The position numbers were made by a program, and so were the translations under genes. The notes beneath the pieces are model-generated. The model saw only the letters and a program-made list of their open reading frames with translations, was not told the origin of the DNA and searched no databases. Source: Natronorubrum texcoconense (GTDB taxonomy: Archaea > Halobacteriota > Halobacteria > Halobacteriales > Natrialbaceae). From it: a stretch of DNA of 64,000 bases. This document shows, in pieces, positions 37,264-39,574 of the stretch; position 1 is the stretch's first letter; each line of letters starts with the position of its first letter. The stretch spans positions 310,001-374,000 of the forward strand of contig NZ_FNFE01000005.1 in assembly GCF_900100335.1 (NCBI RefSeq), given 5' to 3'.

Positions 37264-37298
37264 AAGAGAGAGAAAGAGAGAGAGAAAGAGAGAGAGAC
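37264..37298 (+). repeat. GA-repeat polypurine tract
   Basis: About 35 bases of only A and G (AAAGAGAGAGAAAGAGAGAG and on). Such mirror-symmetric purine tracts can form triplex or unwound DNA. It stands at the left edge of the origin, before the first ORB. Confidence 0.7.
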
Positions 37299-37921
37299 CG
37301 TTAGTGGGGAGACACCCACCCCACGTTTCCGTCGTATCCCGCGAGAGGTAGGGGCTGCTTTGCAGATAGCAGTTGATTGCACCCCCCACGTTTCCGTCGT
37401 TTCTGCAAGACGGCGTAGAGATGGGGACGATCAAAAGTCAAACGTGATGTTCCCTAGCCATGTAGAGCCGTGTAGACTGAGATCTAACATCCCTAACACC
37501 TAGATTAAAGAAGCTAGGTTGAGAAAAGTCCACTAAGTCTATTTCGTTTACTGACGTAACGGATGTTATTTCGTTTCGTCGGCCGAAACGAGGGTTTCTC
37601 TGTTGTCTCTATACTGATTAGCATCTGTCGGCAGAACAGTTCTCCCGCTAATCGTTCTCTCTCGAACCCCCGTTTCCATTGACCCCACCCCCTTCTCGGT
37701 CAGTTACGACGGAAACGTGGGGTGTGGGGGGAGGAAAACATCTTTCTCTATCTCCACTGTCCTTGATCTGGCTTACGTCGGAAATCTGGTTGTACTATCA
37801 ACTGTCTTATTTCCCCGCGATGCATGCTAAAATGCGTATGTTCGGCGGAATTACGTCGGAAATGTGGGGTGGTTTCCACCGCCAGTTTTATGCGCTTTCC
37901 GACCACATCGTGTGATACTGA
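37299..37921. other. replication origin core (ORBs around an AT-richer unwinding region)
   Basis: Left ORBs point leftward: 37315-37335 (CCCACCCCACGTTTCCGTCG) and 37381-37400. A right ORB points the other way, 37706-37730 (ACGACGGAAACGTGGGGTGT), with weaker ones at 37774-37789 and 37853-37872. Between them, 37437-37660 is AT-richer and holds inverted repeats (CCTAG...CTAGG at 37499-37518; CGTTTCGTCGGCCGAAACG at 37572-37590), consistent with a duplex-unwinding element. Inverted ORBs flanking such a region next to an orc1/cdc6 gene is the known haloarchaeal origin layout. The orc1 promoter is probably near 37885-37893 (GTTTTATGC). Confidence 0.8.
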
Positions 37922-39154
37922 ATGACATCTGACCCCTCCTCTAACGCCGTGGACGATCCGTTGTTCGAATCGGGCCATCGGATTTTCTCGAACAAGGATC
38001 TCCTCAAAATCGGCCACGTTCCGGAGGCCGACCGGATCGTCGGTCGCGACGAGGAGATTTCGAAGTTAGCAAAACGGCTGAACGGTGCGGTTCACGGATA
38101 CTCTCCGGAAAACGTGATGATCTACGGCAAGACAGGGACCGGGAAATCGTTGGTCTCGATGCACGTCTGTCAACGCGCTCGAAACGCGGCACAGGACGGT
38201 GTGGCGATCGGAACGGCGTATATCGACTGTGCGGAAGATAACACGGAAACGCAGGCGATCTCCTCGCTCGCCGCGAAACTGAACGACGAGTCCGTTACCG
38301 ATATCACCGTTCCTCACACCGGGCTGAGCACGTCGAAGTACTACAAACTCCTGTGGAAGACGCTCGATGCGCAGTTCGACTCCGTCATCATCATCCTCGA
38401 CGAGATCGATCTGATGAACGACGATAGTCTGCTGATGAAGCTCTCTCGAGCCGAAGAAGCGGGGAAGATCGACTGTAGCATCGGCATCATCGCGATCAGT
38501 AACAAGATCCAGTACGTCGACAATACGAACGAACGCGTAAAGAGTAGCTTCCAGCACAAGGAGCTGTTCTTCAAACCCTACGACGCGAATCAGCTCCGAG
38601 AAATCATGCTCAACCGGGCAGACGCATTCCAGGACGGTGTTCTTTCCGACGACGTCGTTCCGCTCTCTGCGGCGTTCGCCGCGCAGGAACACGGTGATGC
38701 CCGAAAGGCGATCGATATCCTCCGTCACGCCGGCGAGGTCGCATACGAGGAGGGCGCCGAGAAAGTTCGGGAAGAACACGTTCGACAGGCCCAACAGCAC
38801 GCCGAAAAGGATCGGTTCCGAGAACTCGTCAACGGCGCACCCACGCAGGCGAAAGCCGCGTTACTCGCGCTGACCGAACTCAGCGTCAACTCCGACGACG
38901 ACGCGTTCCTCACCAGTCGCGTCTACGATCAGTACGAACAGATTTGCGAGTATCTCGATATGGATATCCTCTCAGTCCGCCGATTCCGGGATATCTTGAA
39001 AGAACAGGCGTTTCTCGGCGTCGTCGAGATCGAGAAAATCAATAAAGGGAGTGCAGGCGGCATCCACCTGCAGAATCGGCTTATCGAGGACCCGCAGGTC
39101 GTTCGTGAAACCATCCTGGAGGATTCCCGGATGCAGAACTGGAACAGCGAGTGA
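37922..39154 (+). CDS. orc1/cdc6: Orc1/Cdc6 replication initiator
   Basis: 410 aa AAA+ ATPase. Walker A is MIYGKTGTGKSLVS (about 62-75) and Walker B is VIIILDEIDLMNDD. Sensor regions are around GIIAISNKIQYVDNTNERV and the arginine-bearing HGDARKAIDILRHAGEVA. A C-terminal winged helix (about 300-400, AKAALLALTELS...LSVRRFRDILKEQAFLGVVE) binds ORBs. Archaeal Orc1/Cdc6 recognises its own ORBs, melts the origin and loads MCM. Here matching ORBs lie on both sides of the gene, so this protein and this origin probably form one specific pair. Length is normal. Confidence 0.95.
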   Translation: MTSDPSSNAVDDPLFESGHRIFSNKDLLKIGHVPEADRIVGRDEEISKLAKRLNGAVHGYSPENVMIYGKTGTGKSLVSMHVCQRARNAAQDGVAIGTAYIDCAEDNTETQAISSLAAKLNDESVTDITVPHTGLSTSKYYKLLWKTLDAQFDSVIIILDEIDLMNDDSLLMKLSRAEEAGKIDCSIGIIAISNKIQYVDNTNERVKSSFQHKELFFKPYDANQLREIMLNRADAFQDGVLSDDVVPLSAAFAAQEHGDARKAIDILRHAGEVAYEEGAEKVREEHVRQAQQHAEKDRFRELVNGAPTQAKAALLALTELSVNSDDDAFLTSRVYDQYEQICEYLDMDILSVRRFRDILKEQAFLGVVEIEKINKGSAGGIHLQNRLIEDPQVVRETILEDSRMQNWNSE

Positions 39155-39227
39155 ACTGCCTCGGGATCAAGCCTCGAGGCATCCACCTCGCTCATTCATT
39201 GCTCTTTTGAACATTCCAGTGACGATT

Positions 39228-39574
39228 ACGACAGAAGTCCGGGGTGAGACGTGAGGAAACGACGGAAGCCTGGGGAGGGGTATACGGAAACGACGGAAAC
39301 GAGGGGGGTTGAATTGAACGACGGAAATGAGGGGCCTGTCGACAGTATCGGTGAATCGGTGTCCGTTCGCCGCCGCGAAAAGTCGTACGTCGGAAACGAG
39401 GGGTGTGACCAACCCATCGCGAAGTCGACGCACGTCAGAAACGACGGAAACCCGGGGTGGGGCGTACGGAAACGACGGAAACGAGGGGGGTTGAATTGAA
39501 CGACGGAAATGTAGGGTCTGCTGACGGCATTCGGAAATTGATATCCGCTGCAAACGACGGAAACACGGGGGTTG
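39228..39574 (+). repeat. right-hand ORB array, nine elements
   Basis: Elements with core ACGACGGAAACG-GGGG, all in the same orientation, start near 39228, 39259, 39290, 39318, 39387, 39441, 39472, 39500 and 39554. Some vary (GAAGCC, GAAATG, GTCGG). The same core occurs in the left cluster. The spacer between orc1 and the PadR gene (39155-39683) holds nothing else that I can support. Confidence 0.8.
39283..39511 (+). repeat. 47-bp direct duplication inside the ORB array
   Basis: 39283-39329 and 39465-39511 are identical by eye, each containing two ORBs joined by GGTTGAATTGA. The copies are 182 bp apart. Confidence 0.75.

Follow-up and report, generated by a model that had tools for sequence, protein, structure and literature searches.

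We analyzed a 64,000-nucleotide stretch of DNA (the window), positions 310001-374000 of contig C6 in an 11-contig, 4.64-Mb genome. The window carries an orc1/cdc6 initiator gene with ORBs on both sides. Specifically, inverted ORBs surround an AT-rich stretch upstream of the gene, and nine further ORBs, all in one direction, lie downstream. The features, in window coordinates, are as follows.

37319..37335, minus strand: outer left ORB, left-pointing (ACGACGGAAACGTGGGG; PWM 26.7); a left-pointing ORB lies near the same offset in most orthologs
37384..37400, minus strand: inner left ORB, left-pointing (PWM 26.7); kept in orthologs
37401..37705, no strand: candidate unwinding element, an AT-rich stretch (52.6% AT) flanked by the inverted ORBs
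37706..37722, plus strand: inner right ORB, right-pointing (PWM 26.7); most orthologs have it at -222 or close by
37775..37791, plus strand: weak ORB (ACGTCGGAAATCTGGTT; PWM 13.3)
37853..37869, plus strand: ORB that immediately precedes the promoter region of orc1 (PWM 23.9)
37922..39154, plus strand: orc1/cdc6 initiator gene, 410 aa, "Orc4" clade (TIGR02928, 448 bits; Cdc6_lid; Cdc6_C winged helix)
39228..39244, plus strand: array ORB 1, degenerate (PWM 17.7)
39259..39275, plus strand: array ORB 2 (PWM 22.4)
39290..39306, plus strand: array ORB 3 (PWM 26.0)
39318..39334, plus strand: array ORB 4 (PWM 25.4)
39387..39403, plus strand: array ORB 5 (PWM 23.7)
39441..39457, plus strand: array ORB 6 (PWM 23.7)
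39472..39488, plus strand: array ORB 7 (PWM 26.0)
39500..39516, plus strand: array ORB 8 (PWM 23.6)
39554..39570, plus strand: array ORB 9 (PWM 23.7)
39256..39547, no strand: imperfect 182-bp duplication in the array (39256-39365 versus 39438-39547, 83% identical over 110 nt)

The window Orc1 possesses both AAA+ and winged-helix domains (TIGR02928, Cdc6_lid, and Cdc6_C), and its closest solved structures are 2qby and 2v1u. Plasmids encode proteins 87-95% identical to it, several of which are annotated Orc4. Within the plasmid collection, identities drop from 87% directly to below 60%. Thus, the window Orc1 belongs to a discrete clade. The Orc4 proteins of pNRC200 and pHLAC01 are both 92% identical to the window protein, and the ORB type is common to all of them. 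Of the 293 genomes that we sampled from the order, 38 contain the Orc4 clade, as do 21 of the 87 genera. It resides on haloarchaeal plasmids, which range from 58 kb to 1.6 Mb, and on some chromosomes, and on several complete plasmids the Orc4-clade protein is the only close Orc1 present. One Orc4 protein is identical across ten genomes from several families (L046-L052, L071, L176, and L177) despite up to 38 differences in the coding DNA, a pattern suggesting that this plasmid initiator, shared so widely, is strongly constrained. pNRC200 also harbors a second Orc4-clade gene (139940-140644, L128), which matches at 91% over the first 235 residues only; its 266-aa frame lacks the winged helix. 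This gene probably encodes NRC-1 Orc2, a protein reported to be essential and more than 90% identical to Orc4 (PMC1906834).

The region upstream of orc1 is very probably a haloarchaeal orc1/cdc6-adjacent origin of canonical layout, as an earlier note on this DNA had claimed. We assembled 60 distinct orthologous loci, whose Orc1 proteins are ~77-100% identical, and located their ORBs with the PWM of the window. Inverted ORBs with a terminal G-string surround an AT-rich stretch in the window, and of the 58 loci whose upstream flank is complete, 56 keep the arrangement. As the note had it, the DNA from one inner ORB to the other is indeed richer in AT, averaging 52.6% and peaking at 64%, compared with 37.9% replicon-wide. 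Conserved columns and blocks run through this stretch among 17 orthologs, with a conserved core at ~37500-37545. Regarding the ORBs themselves, the two left-pointing sites of the earlier note stand, and its count of at least one right-pointing site becomes two strong sites (37706 and 37853) and a weak one (37775). The weak site, at -147, is filled in 41 of 60 orthologs, roughly two thirds. Near -69, a plus-strand ORB is present in 59 of the 60 distinct loci; lying beside the likely promoter, this site may add autoregulation.

Two elements farther upstream deserve mention. A 102-aa ORF (36922-37230) was considered as part of the module and rejected, its homologs being present in only three other loci. 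Upstream of the origin, at 36516-36576, a 21-bp tandem-like repeat (TTACACGGTACGAACTGTG, with variants) occurs three times and is possibly a regulator or partition site.

Contig C6 is 398,115 bp long. It is probably a closed circle because its first 80 bases are identical to its last 80. In a scan covering Orc1/Cdc6 proteins, the window Orc1 was the sole match on C6. Given a circular C6 whose only detected Orc1/Cdc6 gene lies here, the locus is very probably the origin of C6. A 239-kb contig of a congener is collinear with C6 in many blocks (164 kb aligned), and its Orc1 is 99% identical to that of the window. The GC-skew flip that had been predicted at the origin did not materialize: C6 shows no upward flip at 347.5 kb, where skew to the right is, if anything, slightly below that to the left. 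Three related orc4 replicons lack a significant skew signal too (block-shuffle p 0.36-0.55), which makes skew uninformative here, and thus the absent flip on C6 does not refute an origin.

Downstream of the gene, the nine ORBs described in the earlier note occupy 39228-39570, all on the plus strand. Their type is largely confined to this locus rather than scattered equally through the genome. Specifically, the strict pattern ACGWCGGAAANNNGGGG has 14 matches in 4.64 Mb, 10 of which fall at the locus, and the backwards-read control yields zero. On C6 outside the region, sites with a PWM score of at least 13 number no more than two per any 450 bp, compared with nine in the 343 bp of the array. 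This clustering, together with the zero backwards matches, argues that the array is not a product of chance. One isolated perfect ORB of the locus type exists on another contig (G000:C4:313083, L001), with no neighbors within 1.5 kb.

The 182-bp duplication appears to have helped enlarge the array to nine ORBs, and the array spacing of 31/28/69/54/31 is identical in the nearest relative, L078. Tandem Repeats Finder did not detect the array, presumably because its repeat units are too diverged. Inside the duplication, the conservation of ORBs and spacers is only weakly different (62 of 85 versus 46 of 76), and we used a cross-species divergence test in place of that comparison.

The earlier note called a far-side array of this size unusual. 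The orthologs do not support that judgment: downstream ORBs exist in 59 of the 60 distinct loci, though the nine in the window are near the top of the range of 3-10 per locus. Four ORBs are by far the most common number (40 loci), with three in 3 loci, five in 3, six in 5, seven in 6, nine in the window, and ten in 1. The larger arrays belong mostly to Natrialbaceae and Halorussus on the tree. All 275 downstream ORBs are oriented with the gene. None of the 60 loci has a minus-strand ORB downstream of the gene, and hence the arrays contain no inverted partners. In the common four-ORB form, the sites lie at about +28, +59, +87, and +114 past the stop codon. Pairwise comparison of 34 such loci shows that the ORBs diverge by 1.9% and the intervening spacers by 4.6%. 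The corresponding values are 14.4% for fourfold-degenerate sites, 1.0% for codon positions 1 and 2, and 10.6-11.5% for flanking downstream DNA. Relative to fourfold sites, the ORBs thus diverge about sevenfold less, which reveals purifying selection on the noncoding array. Spacings of 27, 28, and 31 bp are preferred.

Two orthologs depart from the usual arrangement. At L066, ~940 bp, starting with an IS200/605-like end, separate the gene from an array that is intact. L218 (G228:C2:9500-16500; 85% identical), which sits on a long branch, is the only ortholog without a downstream array. A new ORF appears to begin there ~95 bp past the stop codon.

An experimentally studied counterpart of this arrangement exists in Haloarcula hispanica. 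As in the window, inverted ORBs lie upstream of the orc1/cdc6 gene (cdc6E) of oriC2, and a cluster of ORBs, oriC2D, occupies the intergenic region directly downstream. The H. hispanica cluster holds 11 ORBs in 722 bp rather than nine in 343 bp, and oriC2 is chromosomal, whereas the window origin is on a megaplasmid. oriC2D has no ARS activity, cannot be deleted unless oriC2 is gone, and reduces the copy number of ARS plasmids whether placed in cis or in trans, with two ORBs producing an intermediate effect (PMC3936714). The authors infer that oriC2D titrates Cdc6E and suggest that the strategy is widely used (PMC3936714). Negative control is a genetically tested property of oriC2D, and we liken the window array to oriC2D by anatomy. 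The initiators are probably of different clades. Cdc6E has been described as confined to Haloarcula (PMC4441112), a genus with no named representative among the close relatives found for the window Orc1; combined with the gap in identity between 87% and below 60%, this suggests a family other than Cdc6E.

By analogy, the window array is best read as an oriC2D-type element, in which the origin's own ORB type is clustered directly downstream of orc1/cdc6. Of the roles that the earlier note had offered for the array, an initiator sink or incompatibility control is the one that this precedent favors. We consider it likely that a circular 398-kb plasmid uses this locus as its replicator and that the nine downstream ORBs are a negative control element, not a second origin. 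In this scheme, Orc1 of the Orc4 clade would bind the inverted ORBs that precede its gene, open the AT-rich stretch between them, and load MCM. The nine co-oriented downstream ORBs would bind the same initiator. Most likely, the array soaks up Orc1 and limits replication: by lowering the free amount of initiator for origin firing, it would restrain initiation, set copy number, and favor incompatibility with replicons of the same type. From oriC2D, we infer that the window Orc1 binds these ORBs, that the effect is negative, and that titration is the mechanism. Observations against the origin and control-array reading include the slightly poorer consensus match of downstream ORBs (mean PWM 24.0, versus 25.3 upstream), the array-less L218, and the dispensability of NRC-1 orc4, for which a knockout was obtained (PMC1906834).

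There are also cases of Orc4 replicators that occur in pairs. Halorubrum lacusprofundi possesses two (L219 and L220), 90% identical in DNA, on replicons of 525,943 and 431,338 bp. In Halorussus vallis, a perfect duplication of more than 5.7 kb gives a 167-kb plasmid two identical copies of orc4 (L221 and L222). Thus, any incompatibility is not absolute.

The fixed geometry of the arrays raises the alternative of iteron-like pairing, or handcuffing. Here, array-bound Orc1 would tether the array to an origin, either on its own plasmid or on a sister plasmid, and geometry and orientation would matter beyond sequestration. Pure titration requires neither strict co-orientation, found in every downstream ORB, nor preferred spacings. 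The layout also resembles that of plasmid P1, in which ori iterons, repA, and incA iterons follow one another. Moreover, bacterial secondary chromosomes with iterons combine handcuffing with titration (PMC6090056). However, oriC2D acts in trans as well, which titration explains most simply (PMC3936714), and co-orientation may come from tandem duplication and spacing from common descent. We regard handcuffing as an unlikely account of the array. Markedly less probable still is a positive role in the origin, with the array supplying extra Orc1 loading sites that aid firing, rightward MCM loading, or fork direction. While the array shares the orientation of the right-hand origin ORBs and is strongly conserved, the same layout at oriC2 reduces origin efficiency, the downstream region there lacks ARS activity (PMC3936714), and the array at L066 tolerates displacement by ~940 bp.

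A third proposal is that the array borrows the initiator to serve as a partition or plasmid-pairing site or as a regulator of the downstream gene. ParA genes do exist on several orc4 plasmids, in H. salilacus ~2 kb downstream, but the distance to parA varies widely, and the motif is that of the origin's own ORB. Furthermore, the genes past the array differ between loci (PadR and RNA ligase in the window, DNA polymerase B in pNRC200, and an oxidoreductase in Halorussus), and thus the array is not the promoter of one gene. We give this proposal very little credence. Finally, a functionless, neutral remnant of repeat expansion, which the variable ORB number, the visible 182-bp duplication, and the array-less L218 lineage might suggest, is scarcely credible given an array kept in 59 of 60 loci whose ORBs evolve so much more slowly than fourfold sites.

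Close parallels also include direct orthologs. pHTUR01 of H. turkmenica, pNRC200 orc4, and pHLAC01 orc4 are 92-95% identical to the window Orc1 and have 4-6 downstream ORBs in the same orientation; most Orc4-type replicator loci have four, compared with nine in the window. For pHTUR01, a single Orc is listed together with a predicted origin (PMC3528665). In the main text of that report, we found no remark on the downstream array of pHTUR01, and the predicted ORBs in its supplement may already show the downstream sites of some orthologs. More distant parallels come from bacteria. In datA, which titrates DnaA, and in the iteron inc loci (Vibrio cholerae chromosome 2, P1 incA, and F incC), initiator-binding repeats are likewise clustered outside the core origin, and these bacterial clusters restrain initiation. 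The initiators are bacterial and the repeats unrelated, and thus the analogy is functional only. The likeness points to independent arrival at the same copy-control layout by Orc1 plasmids in archaea and iteron plasmids in bacteria.

The mechanism is not new. What is new is the family-wide rule, namely, that within a single mobile replicator family the array is almost always present and points in a fixed direction. Its growth to nine ORBs in the window is new as well. A single experimentally studied case, oriC2D, thereby becomes the rule for a whole replicator family. The natural series of three to ten ORBs, together with the array-less ortholog, provides a direct test bed for titration and its dose dependence. 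We speculate, in the knowledge that the idea is more likely wrong than right, that this mobile archaeal family has an obligatory, strictly directional Orc1-binding array that operates like the inc iterons of bacteria, combining orientation-dependent pairing with titration, and that ORB number tunes copy number in each host lineage.

The notion that an array stands behind every haloarchaeal orc1 was considered and rejected. A de novo search, which recovers the ortholog arrays, revealed few or no downstream repeats in most of the other Orc1 families of the genus and of Haloarculaceae and behind most paralogs of 44-57% identity. Exceptions are L167 (53% identical), with eight downstream repeats, and L201 (44%), with four, all co-oriented and of other ORB types. 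The downstream array is thus characteristic of the Orc4 clade, and it arose or persisted in other families also.
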